Shown here in pieces: positions 11,845 to 18,820 of a DNA stretch of 40,939 bases. The notes under the pieces were generated by a model. That model did not search any database, had not been told where the DNA came from, and saw only the letters and a program-made list of their open reading frames with translations. The stretch comes from Clostridia bacterium (GTDB lineage Bacteria > Bacillota > Clostridia > Christensenellales > Aristaeellaceae): contig JAFUTW010000015.1 of the NCBI GenBank assembly GCA_017484085.1, positions 1 to 40,939 of the forward strand. The letters run 5' to 3'. Both the position numbers and the translations under genes were made by a program. Position 1 is the first letter of the stretch. Each line of letters begins with the position of its first letter.

Positions 11845-13863
11845 TCAGAACACGATCTCGCCTGCGCAGTGCTCCAGCGGGCCGGGTGTCGGCTCTTCGC
11901 TGCGCGCGGCGCCGGCAAGGTCTCGGTCCATGACGATGGGGCTGCCGTCCGGGTTTTCAAAGGCCTGTTCCGGCTCGAAAGCGGGCGCCAGCGTGCCGGT
12001 GGTGCACAGCGCGGTCTTTGCGCGGGGGAGATCCTCATACAGGTCGGTCTTCACGACAAAGTGCCCGTCCCGCTCCTCCAGGCGGATCGCCGGTACGCGC
12101 GCGCCGCAGGCGAAGTCCTGCTCCTTTTTGGAGGGACGCGCGCTGCCCAGGAAGACGTTGCCGCCCGTCCAGACGGGCAGGGGGCTGTAATAGCGGTCGC
12201 TCTTTTCGCTGCCCATGCCGCAGTAGCCTTCGAACTGGCGCTCCCACTCCTCCTGCGTCGGGTAATCGTCGTAGGGGAAGGTGCCGGGGGTGAGGTTCAG
12301 GTCGTTCCACTCGTCCTCCTCGGGCGGCAGGGAGACGTCCTTCCAGCCGGCGCGGAGCGCGCGGCCTGCGAAGATGTTGTTGTAAAAGCGCATATCGCCG
12401 TGCAGGATGGTCATAAAGCCCGCGACCTCGGTGCGGTGCGGCATGTGATAGGGCGTATAGCGCGGGGAGGGGTAGAGGATGGAGTTGTTGTTCACGCCCC
12501 GGCCGACGGCGTTGATCGCCCCGGCGATCAGGTTGTGGCACACGGCCACGCCCTGCGTGGGCAGCTTCAGCGCGCGGTCGCTCAGCAGCACGTTGTGGTC
12601 CACCAGCGTGGGCCCGTGGCTGATCTCGATGAAGATGTCCTCGCCGATGCCGACCAGCGCTTCCCGGCACAGCAGATGATCGTGCGGCAGCGTGTTGTCA
12701 AAGAAGAGGTTGCCCGTGACGCGCGTGCCCTGCGCCTGCCAGTCCAGCCAGAGGCCGCGGGTGCAGTGGTGGAACACGTTGCCCCGGATGATGACGTCGA
12801 TGGCTGCGTGCATCTTGATGCCGCCGATCTCCGCCCCGGCCAGGTTCTGCCGGATGTTGATGTGATGGATGCGGTTCCCCTCGATGAGGGAGAAGATGCC
12901 GCCCAGGTGGCCTACGATGCCCGTCTGGCCGCAGTCGTGGATGTCGCAGCCGCGGATGACGTGGCTGCCGATGCGCTCCTTCGTCCAGCCCTCGGCCTGC
13001 GCCTGGCAGATGCACTCGCGCTCCGTCTGGGTGCCGTCCTTGTACTTCGTCTTCAGCCACTTGTTGTCGTTTTCGGGCTGCAGGTACTTGCCCAGCGAAA
13101 TGCCGGAGCACTTGGCGTCGAAGACCTCGCAGTCCTCGATGATCCAGCCGCGCGACCAGTGCGGGCCGATCATGCCCTCCTGGTAAGCGGTGGGCGGGGC
13201 CCACTGGCAGGCCGCCCGGCAGACCTTAAAGCCGGAGAGCGTGATATAGCCGACGCCCTCCGCCTTCGGGTAGAAGCAGGCTTCCCGAACACTCATCTCC
13301 ACCGTTTCCCGGTTTGGGTCCGCCGTCCCGAAGTTGCACAGCAGCACCGTCTCGTCCGTCTCCTCGTCCTGGGAAGCGTACCAGGTGAGAAGGGAGTCGT
13401 CCGGGTTCCAGGAGATCTTCGACGGCACGGGGGCATAGACGCCCTCCGGAGAGGTCACCTCATAGAGCGTGCGGTCGTTCAGGTAAACCTCTCCCAGGTG
13501 GGCCGGGAAGTAGGCGTTGAACCAGTCGCCGCTGACCTTCGTCGTGTAGGGGTTGCGGCCTGTAAAGAGCGCGTTGGGCACGCGGGCTTCCCAGCAGCCC
13601 GGATGGCCCTGAACCGGCACCCAGCCCGTCACGGGCTCTGCGCCGGTGATGACGGCCGCGCGCGGCTCGGCGGAGCGGTAGGTGATACGCGCCTCTTCGG
13701 TGCCGGCGTTGGCCGGGCTTACCCATTCCCGGTAGATGCCGGGCAGGACGAGCACCTCGTCGCCGGGGCGGGCGATGGCCGCGGCCTCGCTGATGGTCCT
13801 GAAGGGCAGCTGCTTGCTGCCGTCGCCGCCGGGGGCGGCTTTGCAGTCGACAATATATTGCAT
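11845..13863 (-). CDS. GH120 beta-xylosidase (right-handed beta-helix fold)
   Basis: 672 residues from the ATG at 13863, fixed by AGGAGGTAC. The sequence follows the GH120 beta-xylosidase of Thermoanaerobacterium (XylC) as I remember it: Y-R-E-W-V, G-D-W-F-N, L-G-E-V-Y-L-N, A-C-F-Y-P, W-A-P-P-T-A-Y-Q, I-G-P-H-W-S-R-G-W-I-I-E-D, D-C-G-Q-T-G-I-V-G-H-L-G-G and G-L-W-L-D-W-Q-A-Q-G-T-R. By that alignment the nucleophile is D374 and the acid/base E413 (F-I-E-I-S-H-G-P). These enzymes release xylose from the ends of short xylo-oligosaccharides. No signal peptide: cytoplasmic, consistent with oligosaccharide import by the downstream ABC system. An insertion of about 16 residues separates the two catalytic residues. 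Confidence 0.9.
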   Translation of the reverse strand: MQYIVDCKAAPGGDGSKQLPFRTISEAAAIARPGDEVLVLPGIYREWVSPANAGTEEARITYRSAEPRAAVITGAEPVTGWVPVQGHPGCWEARVPNALFTGRNPYTTKVSGDWFNAYFPAHLGEVYLNDRTLYEVTSPEGVYAPVPSKISWNPDDSLLTWYASQDEETDETVLLCNFGTADPNRETVEMSVREACFYPKAEGVGYITLSGFKVCRAACQWAPPTAYQEGMIGPHWSRGWIIEDCEVFDAKCSGISLGKYLQPENDNKWLKTKYKDGTQTERECICQAQAEGWTKERIGSHVIRGCDIHDCGQTGIVGHLGGIFSLIEGNRIHHINIRQNLAGAEIGGIKMHAAIDVIIRGNVFHHCTRGLWLDWQAQGTRVTGNLFFDNTLPHDHLLCREALVGIGEDIFIEISHGPTLVDHNVLLSDRALKLPTQGVAVCHNLIAGAINAVGRGVNNNSILYPSPRYTPYHMPHRTEVAGFMTILHGDMRFYNNIFAGRALRAGWKDVSLPPEEDEWNDLNLTPGTFPYDDYPTQEEWERQFEGYCGMGSEKSDRYYSPLPVWTGGNVFLGSARPSKKEQDFACGARVPAIRLEERDGHFVVKTDLYEDLPRAKTALCTTGTLAPAFEPEQAFENPDGSPIVMDRDLAGAARSEEPTPGPLEHCAGEIVF

Positions 13864-13914
13864 ATGTACCTCCTGACCCGGGCGTCTGCGCCGGATGGTG
13901 ATGATTCCAGAGCT

Positions 13915-13943
13915 ATTGTAGCGGGAACAGAAACCGTTTTCAA
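13915..13943 (-). promoter_or_regulatory. Promoter of the GH120 gene
   Basis: Minus strand TTGAAA, 17-base spacer, TACAAT, about 50 bases before the ATG. A perfect 10-base palindrome GCAACGTTGC lies just upstream at 13967-13976 and resembles a LacI-family half-site pair, a candidate operator. Confidence 0.65.
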
Positions 13944-13975
13944 GTGGCGCGGCACACTCCGGCAAAGCAACGTTG

Positions 13976-14020: not shown

Positions 14021-15187
14021 TCAGCAGTACCGCAGGGAGACGGGCTTGCCCAGCTTTTCCAGGCAATCGGCTATGTCCTTGACCAGCCTCAGCTTGATGG
14101 AGAGGGAGATGGGCATGTCCGGATTCTGGTGGGCGGGGTTGAGCGCGCGGCCCACGAGGAAGCGCACGGAGGTGCATTCCTCCACGAGCATGGCAGCCAG
14201 CAGGGAGGCGCCGCTGCTGTCGCAGTGCAGTACGGCGGGGTCCTGCGCGGCGCTGTAGCGCTCCAGCAGCTCCAGCACCTTGCCGATGGTGACGACGCCC
14301 TCCGTAATGAGGTCCACGCCCTCCATGTGGGCGATGGGCGGCACATCCGGAGAGATGTAGTCGAGGTCGATCGTGACCTCGCGCCCCAGGTAGGCGGAGA
14401 CGATCTGCGAGGTGGTGCCGCCGCAGATGACACGCCGCCCTTCGCAGCTCATCAGGTCGTTAACGACGCTCTCGTCGTCTGCGGGGCTGACGGGCGGGCC
14501 GACCATCACGCAGCACGGCACAGGCCGGATGACGTGCAGGGCGGCGACGGTGCAGTCGTCCCCGGGCTCCCCGTCGTAGAGCTCAAAGGTCTTTTCCAGC
14601 AGGCGGTGCTGCACGTCGGCGGCACGGGAGAGAGAGCTCCAGTTTGCCTCCAGATAGTCGATGACGTTCTCCTGCTGCCAGCCCATGTCGATCTTGTGGC
14701 CGATGCCCGCGTGGATGATGCCGTCCGAGAAGGTGACGGCCATATCCCCGAGGCTGAGCTTCATGCGGGCCTCGCGGATCTGCTTGCCCGCGATGTCCAG
14801 ATTGTGCCAGGGCAGGCCGATGTGCCGCCCTTCGCGCAGCAGGATGAGGGAAGGGTTGTCGAATTCCACGAAGTAGGCGTTGCCCTCGCCGTCCACCTGC
14901 ATGAGGGTGAAGGTGGAGTAGGCGACGCCGCGCTCCCTGTCCACGGGCAGGGTGGAGGCCACCGTCTCGATGACGTCGCGGATGTCGGTGCCCGCGGCGA
15001 CCATGGTGGAGAGGATCTTGCAGGTGAGGGTGGCCAGGATGTTGGCTTTGACGCCGCTGCCCAGGCCGTCGGAGAGCACCAGCAGGATGCCGTTTTCATC
15101 CTGCTTGACGATCTCCACCTTGTCGCCGCAGAGCTCCTCGCCCACGTGGTTGAGGCTGGCCCAGCTGGTTTCCATGAAGTAGCTCAC
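14021..15187 (-). CDS. SpoIIE-type PP2C phosphatase paired with a sensory hydrogenase
   Basis: 388 residues. The PP2C core (about 1-222) shows the Mn/Mg-binding signatures L-S-D-G-L-G-S-G (D40), T-F-S-D-G-I (D155) and G-D-D-C-T-V-A (D210, D211), so it should dephosphorylate Ser/Thr phosphoproteins, possibly anti-sigma antagonists. A further ~165 residues (225-388) have no domain I recognise, with R-R-V-I-C-G-G-T-T-S-Q-I-V and L-H-C-D-S-S-G-A-S-L-L segments. Its start overlaps the stop of the PAS-containing hydrogenase gene by four bases, so the two are translationally coupled. Such phosphatases are known companions of group C hydrogenases, and it is the likely output of H2 sensing. It is not the sporulation SpoIIE, since it lacks the N-terminal membrane domain. 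Confidence 0.88.
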   Translation of the reverse strand: MSYFMETSWASLNHVGEELCGDKVEIVKQDENGILLVLSDGLGSGVKANILATLTCKILSTMVAAGTDIRDVIETVASTLPVDRERGVAYSTFTLMQVDGEGNAYFVEFDNPSLILLREGRHIGLPWHNLDIAGKQIREARMKLSLGDMAVTFSDGIIHAGIGHKIDMGWQQENVIDYLEANWSSLSRAADVQHRLLEKTFELYDGEPGDDCTVAALHVIRPVPCCVMVGPPVSPADDESVVNDLMSCEGRRVICGGTTSQIVSAYLGREVTIDLDYISPDVPPIAHMEGVDLITEGVVTIGKVLELLERYSAAQDPAVLHCDSSGASLLAAMLVEECTSVRFLVGRALNPAHQNPDMPISLSIKLRLVKDIADCLEKLGKPVSLRYC

Positions 15188-16887
15188 AGGCGTTCACCGC
15201 CGTTCAGGCTGGCCTTGAGGTGCAGCAGCGCGGCCTTGGTCTCGCCGGTCGTCTCGCCCAGCAGGCTGGCGATCTCCTGCGCGACGCGCATCTGCTTGTC
15301 GATGACGGCCTGCGCGGTCTCCAGCGTCTCCCGGCGCATCTTCTCCATGGCCTGCAGGCTCTCCTCCTCGACGGAGATGTCCTTGACGATGACGAGATAC
15401 TCGTGGTTGGGCATGGGGATGATGCTCTGCTCCACCATGAGATCGTAGATGGCGGTGCGGCAGCGCTCGTTCATCACGTTTTCACCGGTCTCAAGGATCG
15501 TGGAGAGCTTGTCCATGTTGAGGAAGAGGGAAGCCTCCATGCCGATGCAGTCGTGGTTCAGGTTGAACAGGCGGACGGCGGAGGGGTTGAAGTCCAGGAT
15601 GCGCAGATCGTGATCCAGGCTGATCAGCGCATTGGGCGTGTTGTCCAGGATGGAGTTGGCCGTGGATTCCGCGCGCTGGCGCATATAGGGCAGGCACATG
15701 CGCACGTTGGCCTTGCCGCGGTAGACGGCGATGGCCTTTTCCCGGCAGGTGTCGTAGCCGCAGCCGCCGCAGTTCAGCATATCGGAAGGGCTGACCTTGC
15801 CGATGGAGCGCAGGATGGCCGCGATCTCCTCCTCGGTGGGCATGGGCTCCTCGCTGTGCAGCGAAGGATACTCCACCCTCATGGGAACGTGCAGCGGCTC
15901 GCTCTCGGGCTCCGCGCCCGTCTCCGTGCGGCGGGAGAAGCCGTACACGGCTTCCTTGCTGAGCAGGAAGGAGGGCGCGCGGTCGTACTCGTGCATGGCA
16001 GGGCCGCCCACACAAGAATCCACGCAGGAGGAGAGTTCCAGCAGGTAGCCGGAAATGCGGCTGTCGCGGATGTCCTGCAGCACGCGGATGCAGCGGTCGA
16101 GCCCGTCGATGGCGATGGCGGTATAGCCGGTGCGCTGCTCCGGCGGGATGGTCTTGATGATGCCGCCGGGCACGGGGTAGAGGCGGCTGATCGTGCGGTG
16201 CATGGGGCGGGCGTCTTTGCCGGACTGGCGCTCCACGTCGATGCCCTCGCGGCGGAGCCAGTCGTGCAGCTCGCCGAACATCAGCACGGCGTCGATCTCG
16301 CCGGAATCCTTCGCTTCCTGTTTTTTCGAGATGCAGGGCCCGATGAAGCAGACCTTCACGTCCTTCCCGTACGCCTCGCGCAGCAGCCTTGCGTGCGCGA
16401 CGGCCGGAGAGGCGACGTGCGCCAGCTGGGGCAGCAGCTCGGGGAAGTACTTCTGCACCAGGCGCACGACGGTCGGGCAGCAGGTGGTGATGAGATTGTC
16501 CTGCGTGTGGTTCTGCAGGATCTCGGCGTACGCTTCCGATACGCGGGTGGCGCCGATGGCCGTCTCCTCCACGGCGGCAAAGCCGAGGCGCCCCAGCGCG
16601 CCGGAAACCTGCTCGAAGGTGCAGCCGGGGAAGGCGGCGATGAAGGAAGGAGCGAGGGAGACGACGACGCGCTCCCGGCGCTCCAGCATCGCGCGGACGC
16701 TGTCCAGATCGGAGGCGATCTGCTTGGCGTTCTGCGGGCAGATCAGGGTGCACTTGCCGCACAGCACGCACTCCTCCTCGAGGATGCGCGCCTGATCGTC
16801 GTGAAAGGTGATGGATTTGACGGGGCAGCTGCGGATGCACTTATAGCAGTTCCGGCAGTCTGCCTCCTTCAGCTGGATGATGCTCAT
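15184..16887 (-). CDS. Group C sensory [FeFe] hydrogenase with PAS domain (HydS-like)
   Basis: 567 residues from ATG 16887, chosen because GGAGG lies five bases upstream; a GTG at 16902 would lack a site. Order: two [4Fe-4S] ferredoxin motifs (C11-C14-C17-C21 and C40-C43-C46-C50); H-cluster domain with T-T-C136-C137-P, G-P-C185-I-S-K-K and S-S-C288-V-D-S-C292-V-G-G; a further four-Cys iron-sulphur motif (C373, C376, C381, C398, in CGGCGYDTC); a PAS domain (about 405-510); and a helical tail. Departures from catalytic enzymes (G for M before C185, S-S for M-A before C288) fit the sensory group. C136, the usual proton-relay cysteine, is retained. Predicted to sense H2 or redox state and signal through the overlapping phosphatase gene. 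Confidence 0.9.
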   Translation of the reverse strand: MSIIQLKEADCRNCYKCIRSCPVKSITFHDDQARILEEECVLCGKCTLICPQNAKQIASDLDSVRAMLERRERVVVSLAPSFIAAFPGCTFEQVSGALGRLGFAAVEETAIGATRVSEAYAEILQNHTQDNLITTCCPTVVRLVQKYFPELLPQLAHVASPAVAHARLLREAYGKDVKVCFIGPCISKKQEAKDSGEIDAVLMFGELHDWLRREGIDVERQSGKDARPMHRTISRLYPVPGGIIKTIPPEQRTGYTAIAIDGLDRCIRVLQDIRDSRISGYLLELSSCVDSCVGGPAMHEYDRAPSFLLSKEAVYGFSRRTETGAEPESEPLHVPMRVEYPSLHSEEPMPTEEEIAAILRSIGKVSPSDMLNCGGCGYDTCREKAIAVYRGKANVRMCLPYMRQRAESTANSILDNTPNALISLDHDLRILDFNPSAVRLFNLNHDCIGMEASLFLNMDKLSTILETGENVMNERCRTAIYDLMVEQSIIPMPNHEYLVIVKDISVEEESLQAMEKMRRETLETAQAVIDKQMRVAQEIASLLGETTGETKAALLHLKASLNGGERL

Positions 16888-16898
16888 CGCCGCCTCCG

Positions 16899-17150
16899 TC
16901 ACGCGCGCGTCAGGGGCACGATCTCCTCAGCGATGAGGGAAGGGACCCGCTCGGCGTCCACGTGGTGGAAGAGGGTGTCGTTGACCTTGGCGCATGGGCC
17001 GTCCTTGCAGTTGCCCATGCAGAAGCTGGCCGTGAGGTGGACCTTGTCCGCGATGCCGGCCTTCTCCAGCTCCTCGCGGAACAGCTTGGTGGTGGCGTAG
17101 GCGCCTTTCATGTGGCAGGCGGAGCCGACGCAGATGCTGACATTGACCAT
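16899..17150 (-). CDS. Thioredoxin-like [2Fe-2S] ferredoxin (NuoE/HydC-like)
   Basis: 83 residues, the size of a lone thioredoxin-fold ferredoxin. Four ligands are visible in the expected spacing: C7 and C12 (ICVGSACH) and C44 and C48 (SFCMGNC); C53 is extra. Proteins like this serve as electron carriers or as the NuoE-like small subunit of NAD(P)-linked hydrogenases. No NuoF-like flavin subunit is encoded here, so it more likely shuttles electrons to or from the group B or group C enzyme than forms a bifurcating complex. It sits between the two hydrogenase genes with short gaps, in one operon. Confidence 0.9.
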   Translation of the reverse strand: MVNVSICVGSACHMKGAYATTKLFREELEKAGIADKVHLTASFCMGNCKDGPCAKVNDTLFHHVDAERVPSLIAEEIVPLTRA

Positions 17151-17183
17151 GATAATCCTCCCTTATATTCCGCAGGCAGCCGC

Positions 17184-18632
17184 TTATTCGGCCGGCATGC
17201 CCAAGAGTTCACAGATGTAGAGCGAGTCTTCGATGCTCTTTTCCAGCGCCAGCCGGCCGTACTTGTCCACGTTGCTGGCTTCCTTCGCGCCGTGCGTCAG
17301 GCAGCCCGGGCCGCCGATGCAGCCCTGCTCGCAGGCCATGCCTTCGATGAAGTTCTCCGGCAGCTTGCCCAGCTGGGCCTTGAGCAGCGCCGTCTTGCAC
17401 TCCTCCAGGCCGCTGCAGGCGACGGGGTTCAGATGGAATTCCTCGTCGGTCACCTTCTGCTCCTTCAGCGCTTCCGCCACGGCGTCGCGCAGGCCGCCGC
17501 TGCGGGCGAAGATGCGCCCGAAGTAGGAGGCGTTGTCCAGCACGCCCTCCTCCATGGCCGCGGGGTCGATCTCATAGGCGTCGAACAGCGCCTGGAGCTC
17601 TTCGAAGGTCATGGCCGCGTCGATGATGTCCCGCACCCGCTCCTGCTTGATCTCGCCCTTCTTGGCGACACAGGGCCCGATGAACACGATGGAAGCGTTC
17701 GGATGGGCCTTCTTGATCAGCTGGCCGATAGCGGCCATCGGGGAGAGGTTGGAGGAAATGTGCTCCGCCATCTTGGGGTAGAACTTGCGGATGTAGCTGA
17801 CGAAGGCGGGGCAGCAGCTGGAGGTGAGGAAGCCCTTCTCCTTCAGCTCCTTCGCCTCGCGGTAGGCGACGATGTCCGCGCCCAGCGCGGCCTCGATGAC
17901 GTCCGAGAAGCCGAGGGCCTTGAGGGCGTTCACGATCTGCCCGGTCTTGACGCCGCCGAACTGGCCGGCGATGGACGGGGCGATGACCGCATACAGCGGG
18001 CCGGCGCCTTCGCTGGCGGCTTCCTTCAGCAGGCGCACGACGGAGAGGATGTAGCTCTTGTCCACGATGGCGCCGAAGGGGCACTGGTAGACGCAGGCGC
18101 CGCAGCTGACGCACTTCTCCTCGTCGATCTCCGCCTTGTGGTTTTCATCCATATGGATGGCGCCCGGCTTGCAGGCGCGCTCGCAGGGACGCACGTTTTT
18201 GGTGATGGCGCCGTAGGGGCAGGCGCTGGCGCACTTGCCGCAGGCGATGCACTTCTTGGGGTCGATGACGGCGGTATGGTGGGGATGGGAGATCGCGTCC
18301 TTGGGACACACGTGCTCGCAGCGCCTCGCGATGCAGCCGCGGCAGGCGTCGCCCACCGTCATGCGGCTGACGGGGCACTCGTCGCAGGCGATGGTCAGCA
18401 CCTCGACCTCGTTTTTCTTCTCCGGATGGCCGCCCAGCGCCATCTGGATGCGCTGGCCGATGATGGCGCGCTCCTTGTAAATGCAGCAGCGGGTCGTGGG
18501 CTCCGGGCCGGGGATGATGGTCTCCGGGATGGAGAGCAGGTTTTCCTGCAGCCGGTCCTCCTTGGCCAGGCGGGCCACTTCTTTCAGGACCTTGTATTTC
18601 AGTTCCTGTACACTGGTATCGAATTTCGGCAA
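17184..18632 (-). CDS. Group B [FeFe] hydrogenase
   Basis: 482 residues. The start is a TTG, supported by AAAGGG eight bases upstream and by the lack of any nearby in-frame ATG. The N-terminal part has a Cys-rich segment (C83, C86, C97, C100, C105, C109) and ferredoxin motifs (C128-C131-C134-C138; C174-C177-C180-C184, plus C150 and C154). The H-cluster domain has S-S-C273-C274-P-A-F, G-P-C321-V-A-K-K and G-M-A-C434-E-Q-G-C438-I-G-G. These are the three H-cluster loops with all ligands and the relay cysteine C273, so it should be able to evolve or oxidise H2. The layout matches the poorly characterised group B (M2/M3-like) enzymes of Clostridia. First gene of the operon, behind a strong promoter with a Rex-like site. 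Confidence 0.9.
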   Translation of the reverse strand: MPKFDTSVQELKYKVLKEVARLAKEDRLQENLLSIPETIIPGPEPTTRCCIYKERAIIGQRIQMALGGHPEKKNEVEVLTIACDECPVSRMTVGDACRGCIARRCEHVCPKDAISHPHHTAVIDPKKCIACGKCASACPYGAITKNVRPCERACKPGAIHMDENHKAEIDEEKCVSCGACVYQCPFGAIVDKSYILSVVRLLKEAASEGAGPLYAVIAPSIAGQFGGVKTGQIVNALKALGFSDVIEAALGADIVAYREAKELKEKGFLTSSCCPAFVSYIRKFYPKMAEHISSNLSPMAAIGQLIKKAHPNASIVFIGPCVAKKGEIKQERVRDIIDAAMTFEELQALFDAYEIDPAAMEEGVLDNASYFGRIFARSGGLRDAVAEALKEQKVTDEEFHLNPVACSGLEECKTALLKAQLGKLPENFIEGMACEQGCIGGPGCLTHGAKEASNVDKYGRLALEKSIEDSLYICELLGMPAE

Positions 18633-18710
18633 ACGTTACACCCTTTCTGAATGGTTTCTTCATCACAGTGGAAGCGTACAGAGACAGATCGTCTGCACAC
18701 ATCCCCTTTC

Positions 18711-18739
18711 AGTGTAACGCTGCAGCACAAATTTGTCAA
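18711..18739 (-). promoter_or_regulatory. Promoter of the hydrogenase operon
   Basis: Minus strand TTGACA, 17-base spacer, TACACT. It is about 80 bases before the TTG start of the group B hydrogenase. Confidence 0.75.
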
Positions 18740-18750
18740 TTAATTAACAG
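18733..18750. promoter_or_regulatory. Candidate Rex (NADH-responsive repressor) operator
   Basis: TTGTCAATTAATTAACAG matches the clostridial Rex pattern TTGTTAA-N4-TTAACAA at 12 of 14 defined positions and covers the -35 box of the hydrogenase promoter. Rex is known to control hydrogenase and fermentation genes in Clostridia. No rex gene is in the window. Confidence 0.6.
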
Positions 18751-18791: not shown

Positions 18792-18820
18792 TTGACACGG
18801 ATGACAGAGGGATTTATAAT
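18792..18820 (+). promoter_or_regulatory. Promoter of the yqhQ-type gene
   Basis: Perfect TTGACA and TATAAT with a 17-base spacer, 75 bases before the ATG. Confidence 0.8.

Follow-up and report, generated by a model that had tools for sequence, protein, structure and literature searches.

The window, i.e. the whole stretch of DNA analysed here, is the 40,939-nt contig JAFUTW010000015.1 (C12 in our numbering), taken in full from a draft genome of a Clostridia bacterium of the family Aristaeellaceae; the draft amounts to 2.43 Mb and is 80.75% complete. Its minus strand carries four neighbouring genes for a group B [FeFe]-hydrogenase (HydB), a thioredoxin-like protein (TRX), an [FeFe]-hydrogenase with a PAS domain (HydC), and a SpoIIE-type phosphatase (SPP), which are listed with their domains and flanking signals in Table 1. 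We consider it probable, at roughly 0.65, that these genes form an hfs-type H2/redox-sensing hydrogenase unit of a less common gene order, in which HydC would signal via its PAS domain and a helix to SPP.

Table 1. Genes, protein domains and predicted signals of the putative hydrogenase operon in the window.
Feature	Position	Strand	Remarks
HydB, group B monomeric [FeFe]-hydrogenase (HfsD-like)	18632-17184	-	482 aa, TTG start
TRX, thioredoxin-like [2Fe-2S] protein	17150-16899	-	83 aa
HydC, sensory [FeFe]-hydrogenase with PAS (HydS/HfsB-like)	16902-15184	-	572 aa
HydC H-cluster domain, residues 78-301	16000..16671	-	PF02906; alignment to CpI and HydA1 chains
HydC extra FeS domain, residues 376-405	15688..15777	-	PF04060
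HydC PAS domain, residues ~416-508	15379..15657	-	PF00989 just under cut-off; predicted model
HydC C-terminal helix, residues 510-567	15202..15375	-	Predicted model; conservation
SPP, SpoIIE-type PP2C phosphatase (HfsC-like)	15187-14021	-	388 aa
SPP C-terminal domain, residues 224-388 (165 residues)	14024..14518	-	No known family; conserved in 22 aligned sequences
Predicted sigma-70-like promoter TTGACA-17-TACACT	18739-18711	-	10/12 consensus match only
Rex-operator-like palindrome TTGTCAATTAATTAACAG	18733..18750	.	Overlaps the -35 box; 12/14 specified bases of TTGTTAANNNNTTAACAA
Terminator-like hairpin, GC-rich 12-bp stem followed by GATTTTGC	14009-13982	-	-24.6 kcal/mol, z -4.67

The head-to-tail arrangement of the four genes with tiny gaps or overlaps, which the original prediction had read from the sequence, was confirmed by the coordinates of the open reading frames (ORFs) and by matches to protein families. 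HydB and TRX are separated by 33 nt, and the two following junctions, TRX/HydC and HydC/SPP, are four-base overlaps with the same letters, GTGA. Both overlaps depend on the GTG starts of HydC and SPP; the one between sensor and phosphatase is present if the GTG of SPP is used, and an ATG four codons further in would give an 8-nt gap instead. For HydC, an ATG five codons in is also possible. The GC content of third codon positions is 0.92-0.93 in all four genes. A PAS-containing [FeFe]-hydrogenase, a SpoIIE-type phosphatase, and a group B hydrogenase are clustered here on one strand, as in an hfs-type unit.

The three [FeFe]-hydrogenase domains of the draft genome all lie inside the window and belong to HydB, HydC, and another enzyme of group B; the genome also encodes the HydF maturase (519 bits). 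HydB matches TIGR04105 (FeFe_hydrog_B1) at 571 bits, above the curated cut-off of 450, which assigns it to group B, and PF02906 at 218.5 bits; judging by its family, it would be a catalytic ferredoxin-linked hydrogenase. The second group B enzyme is encoded at 28795-27197 of the minus strand (TIGR04105, 599.8 bits), and no sensor or phosphatase was recognised beside it.

HydC and SPP go together. Matches above 400 bits (a limit of our own choice) to HydC and to SPP were obtained in the same 31 of 60 genomes, the genome of the window included. The loose ends of this pairing are an SPP represented only by a fragment at the start of contig C66 (G034), an SPP cut at a contig end (G054), a HydC and an SPP located on different contigs (G019), and a second HydC-like match of 409 bits in G024, which covers residues 8-450 and extends up to the edge of its contig of 3751 bases; in none of these cases does uncut sequence hold a HydC without SPP. 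Among 200 order-level genomes, the C-terminal domain of SPP was detected in 68 and the C-terminal helix of HydC in 67; the difference is one genome (G097) with HydC and SPP split between contigs, and the correspondence of contigs in the two lists of matches was compared by eye. At the phylum level, HydC lies directly upstream of 58 out of 58 full-length SPP genes examined, the sample consisting of 60 regions (61 places) out of 147, for which the first two fetches leaned to weak, second-copy and stand-alone matches and the third to spread; at one locus (L194), HydC is split into two frames. The junction between the two genes measures from -17 to +20 nt in 47/47 loci and is an overlap in 42 of them, if the ATG nearest to the homologous start is used, by which the window itself is scored +8. 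The original prediction had made its reading dependent on the co-occurrence of sensor and phosphatase in related genomes, and this co-occurrence is what the genomes display.

HydC matches PF02906 (156 bits) and PF04060 (38.7 bits) and also possesses N-terminal iron-sulphur (FeS) motifs. Its PAS domain scores 22.2 bits with PF00989, just below the Pfam cut-off of 22.6, and the predicted model of the protein (mean pLDDT 80.9) has a mixed strand-helix domain at the expected PAS place. The H-cluster cysteines (Cys142, 190, 293 and 297) are present in 28/28 aligned HydC sequences. The positions of M353 and M497 (numbering of CpI) are both replaced, as is typical of sensory enzymes including TmHydS: the first is Gly in all 28 sequences, and the second is Ser in 19, the window included, and Asn in nine. 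The four [4Fe-4S]H cysteines, the C-terminal PAS domain, and the adjacent Ser/Thr phosphatase agree with group C3 of HydDB, which is described as phosphatase-linked and putative, its role being listed as undetermined (PMC5037454). After the PAS domain, the model has a single helix, along which pLDDT drops from 85 to about 53 and which carries a highly conserved EIASLLGET..ETK segment. In the 200 genomes, every frame hit by a profile of this helix was hit by the HydC profile too; contig ends truncate two of these frames.

The small protein TRX matches PF01257 with 41.8 bits (cut-off 24.8), and its four cysteines, C-x4-C ... C-x3-C, are in the usual spacing. The proposal of the original prediction that TRX serves as the electron carrier of HydB was abandoned as the default reading, since it is HydC that TRX accompanies across the loci. 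Of the 46 loci with at least 450 bp of upstream sequence, 36 have TRX in front of HydC at a distance of up to 400 bp; in the other 10, no TRX could be found next to HydC, and a search for the spacing of its cysteines came up empty as well. Where HydB is downstream (28 loci), TRX is never its neighbour, and where HydB is upstream (five loci, the window among them), TRX sits between it and HydC. On the strength of this neighbourhood, TRX is more likely to be the sensor's partner than the electron carrier of HydB.

The position of HydB itself is variable: in 47 loci it is located downstream of SPP (28 loci), upstream of TRX (5), or is absent (8), and in 6 its position was undetermined. The HydB-upstream order was found in the window, G011, G030, L059, and L060. 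It needs two changes in the HydC tree as well as in the HydB tree; the starred branches force two changes in the former and only one in the latter. In both trees, the genes of the window group with those of G011, whose HydC is 96% identical to that of the window, and of G030, and not with the remaining representatives of their genus, a placement suggestive of transfer or differential loss. Since the trees were obtained by a quick method and long branches were flagged, the link of the window's clade to a Calditrichales sequence is unsure.

SPP starts straight at the phosphatase core, which matches PF07228 with 64.1 bits. Aspartates 22, 40, 155, 210, and 211, which we take to be the metal-binding ones, are present in 26/26 sequences, as is proper to the PP2C fold. 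The core is followed by a domain for which the window sequence has no Pfam match; other members give scattered weak matches (best E 0.0021), and a profile of the domain searched against Protein Data Bank sequences has phosphoheptose isomerase as its best match (E 0.098), none being significant. The result rows of Foldseek and VIA-align for SPP were filled by the PP2C domain, so that the fold of the C-terminal domain was barely tested by them. At the phylum level, the domain was detected in 122/398 genomes at 147 places, and the 61 places examined comprise 58 full-length SPP behind HydC and three stand-alone genes behind a group A hydrogenase; short or cut matches outside the examined set occur in G524, G263, G348, G626, G621, G483, G507, G574, and G578.

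We suggest tentatively, holding it for doubtful rather than probable, that this domain may be a hydrogenase-associated module anchoring the phosphatase on a hydrogenase, in which case SPP would dephosphorylate a hydrogenase or the sensor itself, making an H2-controlled post-translational switch without a sigma-factor cascade. The three stand-alone genes behind a group A [FeFe]-hydrogenase (L143, L144 and L145) come from three genomes of one genus, g227, and possibly represent one event. The same three genomes also hold an ordinary HydC-SPP pair (L146-L148).

The original prediction had looked for the target of SPP among anti-sigma antagonists, i.e. STAS proteins encoded elsewhere in the genome, which SPP would dephosphorylate in classical partner switching. 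Three STAS domains are encoded in the genome, at two loci that are both equipped with a SpoIIE-type PP2C and an RsbW-type kinase of their own, which speaks against such a target for SPP. Homologues of these STAS and RsbW proteins turned up in a single locus (L070, some 3 kb away from HydC) out of the 107 fetched, the 107 including three stand-alone-domain loci as well as L035 and L055, which are the same place. The search for STAS proteins co-occurring with the phosphatase, which the original prediction had recommended, was run and proved uninformative: STAS is present in 56/60 genomes, with or without SPP, which is too common to inform on the target. Conversely, 3/31 genomes with HydC and SPP (G016, G024 and G054) show no STAS, these being drafts of 77-90% completeness. 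An anti-sigma antagonist is thus weakened as the target, and classical partner switching is possible but not favoured; we regard it as unlikely.

Two proteins of the same genome combine the domains in question. At L087:5093-6271 (contig C26), STAS is fused to an APH/TIGR02172-type kinase; the neighbours of this fusion gene are a further STAS gene, a gene for an RsbW-type kinase, and one for a HAMP-SpoIIE phosphatase. At L088:579-3515 (contig C11), a 978-residue protein unites a membrane sensor of five transmembrane segments with a SpoIIE phosphatase and a kinase of the RsbW type; a STAS gene is close by.

Many related operons are longer than that of the window, which is devoid of the AdhE, kinase, and Rex genes seen in many relatives. 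ORFs of the APH-type kinase cluster occur in 16/48 related loci, 15 times upstream of the unit and once (L045) downstream, examples having been checked with profiles. AdhE-family ORFs on the operon strand likewise occur in 16/48 loci, some of them cut by contig ends, with that of L045 located downstream and that of L052 having 373 aa only; a Rex gene was found in 7/48. The R. albus (Ruminococcus albus) cluster considered below is reported, in a 2014 study, to include a kinase and Rex as well. These neighbours allow a scheme in which SPP reverses the action of the APH-type kinase on AdhE or another fermentation enzyme, and the frequency of both kinds of ORFs supports it. However, HydC and SPP persist in the genome of the window (G000), in G011, and in G033, of which G000 and G011 are incomplete drafts, and these three have neither a close kinase nor a full AdhE: the best kinase match in the window genome (E 1.7e-5) is a STAS-kinase fusion, and no match there spans both AdhE halves; G011 and G033 also came out empty on both counts. 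In G030, the kinase and AdhE genes are both on another contig. We therefore give the kinase-reversal scheme little credence. The core unit persists without these genes, and the short operon in drafts devoid of a kinase and a full AdhE suggests that the core circuit needs neither.

The promoter and the terminator of the operon are predictions. The promoter in front of HydB is the only one suggested for the four genes, as the consensus scan gave no further matches on the minus strand inside the operon. The palindrome overlapping it resembles the clostridial Rex consensus TTGTTAANNNNTTAACAA given in PMC8457756, and is the sole match of the window at up to three mismatches; since chance expects 0.35 such matches per window (30/100 shuffles have at least one), it is the position of the site that counts. 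Rex-like sites are also located upstream of HydB in G011 (12/14) and in G030 (13/14). For all related operons together, sites with at least 12/14 bases were found upstream of 9/46, whereas 200 shuffles gave 0.25 on average and never more than 2; 37/46 upstream regions have no such site. The shuffles keep the composition and not the promoter elements, the motif was tried after the site had been noticed by eye, and the L060 region, 5572 nt long instead of 300, was scored as a miss. A Rex-type N-terminal DNA-binding domain is encoded elsewhere in the genome, at C24 (81.4 bits). To judge from these sites, transcription of the operon is probably also gated by Rex.

At the other end of the operon, the consensus scan for terminators gave no site behind SPP, its only match being on the plus strand inside HydB. 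Downstream lies a gene for a GH120 insertion domain and beta helix (11845-13965, minus strand), after which come, also on the minus strand, GH30 and ABC-transport genes. On the plus strand, a sigma-70 promoter with a full 12/12 consensus match (TTGACA-17-TATAAT, 18792-18820) points toward a DUF1385 gene, divergently from the operon.

The following scheme may be proposed for the hfs-type unit. HydC would bind H2 at its intact but re-tuned H-cluster; electrons would pass through its FeS clusters, with TRX as a possible partner, and the PAS domain would read the redox state. The signal may then exit via the C-terminal helix, docking on SPP and switching it in a manner that we liken to the PAS-helix linker of RsbP, after which SPP would dephosphorylate a target that sets the amount or the activity of hydrogenase. 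Gating by Rex would add a second input, high NADH opening the operon and H2 trimming it.

Published systems lend this scheme its background. In hfsABCD, HfsB is described as a PAS hydrogenase, HfsC as a serine-phosphatase homologue, and HfsD as a ferredoxin-linked hydrogenase (PMC11837493), the last being termed group B in PMC8924675; the deletion of hfsB is reported to raise hydrogenase activity and adhE transcripts (PMC5707799). The R. albus cluster comprises eight genes, among them those for a sensory hydrogenase, a bifunctional alcohol/aldehyde dehydrogenase, and a ferredoxin-only hydrogenase, which is termed group A1 there; its level fell 111-fold when R. albus was grown together with an H2 consumer, and feedback by way of a phosphatase was proposed (PMC6776011). 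For RsbP/RsbU, a linker-driven dimerisation has been proposed to switch the PPM phosphatase.

Several observations weigh against the scheme. HydB is missing from the cluster in 8/41 judgeable loci and is hence not obligatory to the unit. The conserved end of the HydC helix is the part of low model confidence, and in more distant members the helix profile is weak (L171, L173, L175, L177 and L180) or missed (L181). One Rex-like match in a window of this length is no rarity by chance, and one half-site of the palindrome includes the -35 hexamer. According to PMC5707799, the deletion of hfsC or hfsD in Thermoanaerobacterium gives a phenotype different from that of hfsB, which leaves the order of the pathway unsettled. 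Finally, the proton-relay cysteine (C299 of CpI), which is usually, not universally, replaced in sensory enzymes, is kept as C141 in the HydC of the window and is Cys in 26/28 sequences (Ala in L056, Ser in L064), as compared with the 17% of HydDB sensory sequences reported to retain it; HydC may thus be a catalyst rather than a sensor.

If so, HydC would be a catalytic or electron-transferring subunit working with TRX, perhaps also with HydB, and SPP would regulate it by dephosphorylation without any sensing of H2. The frequent presence of TRX beside HydC fits this alternative, as does the suggestion in PMC13277313 that a working hydrogenase could be built from HfsABC even when HfsD is lacking. 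However, the replacement of both methionines is that of sensory enzymes, a PAS domain with an output helix is hard to explain in a plain catalyst, and the deletion of hfsB raised rather than lowered hydrogenase activity. We consider a purely catalytic HydC improbable and prefer the sensory unit.

The original interpretation thus stands for the association of the genes and for the sensor-phosphatase pairing, is not borne out for the role of TRX, and is weakened for the anti-sigma target. A group B enzyme is indeed grouped with a sensor and a phosphatase; the coupling of H2 turnover to H2 signalling in one operon has already been proposed in publications on R. albus and Thermoanaerobacterium. 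Leads that go beyond the original interpretation are the extra domain of SPP, the helix at the C-terminus of HydC, and the Rex-like operator. How group B hydrogenases are controlled matters for gas in gut and rumen, as these enzymes reportedly drive the production of H2 in the gut (PMC12578642). H2 sensing by [FeFe]-hydrogenases in anaerobes is still termed putative in print, and the unit described here is offered for testing, with its consistently paired sensor and phosphatase and its conserved output helix. The interest for the specialist lies in this pairing, the helix, the Rex-like site, and above all in the unexplained domain of the phosphatase.

Among known systems, the operon shares three of four gene kinds with hfsABCD of Thermoanaerobacterium saccharolyticum and T. 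thermosaccharolyticum, a likeness by description and not by sequence. The order differs, being D-A-B-C in the window as compared with A-B-C-D, if TRX stands for HfsA; HfsA is described as aligning poorly with known proteins (PMC11837493), whereas the small protein of the window is thioredoxin-like (PF01257). The hydA2-hydS cluster of R. albus 7 likewise combines a ferredoxin-only hydrogenase, a PAS sensory hydrogenase, and a Ser/Thr phosphatase, which are coregulated with H2 there, but it has eight genes, including the bifunctional aldehyde/alcohol dehydrogenase, and its catalytic enzyme is called A1, whereas the window has four genes.

The linkage of a group C hydrogenase to serine/threonine phosphatases is shared with HydDB group C3. 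TmHydS of Thermotoga maritima is alike in joining an H-cluster domain to PAS and in carrying Gly in place of M353 and Ser in place of M497; it differs in the C299 position, which is Ala as compared with Cys in HydC of the window, and the main text of the TmHydS paper mentions no phosphatase. With RsbP/RsbU, the comparison is one of working and not of membership: a sensor, a helical linker, and a PPM domain occur in both, so that HydC-SPP resembles a split RsbP. In the window, however, the phosphatase is a chain separate from the sensor and its helix and has an additional C-terminal domain, a hydrogenase takes the place of the sensor, and there is no linked STAS/RsbW pair.

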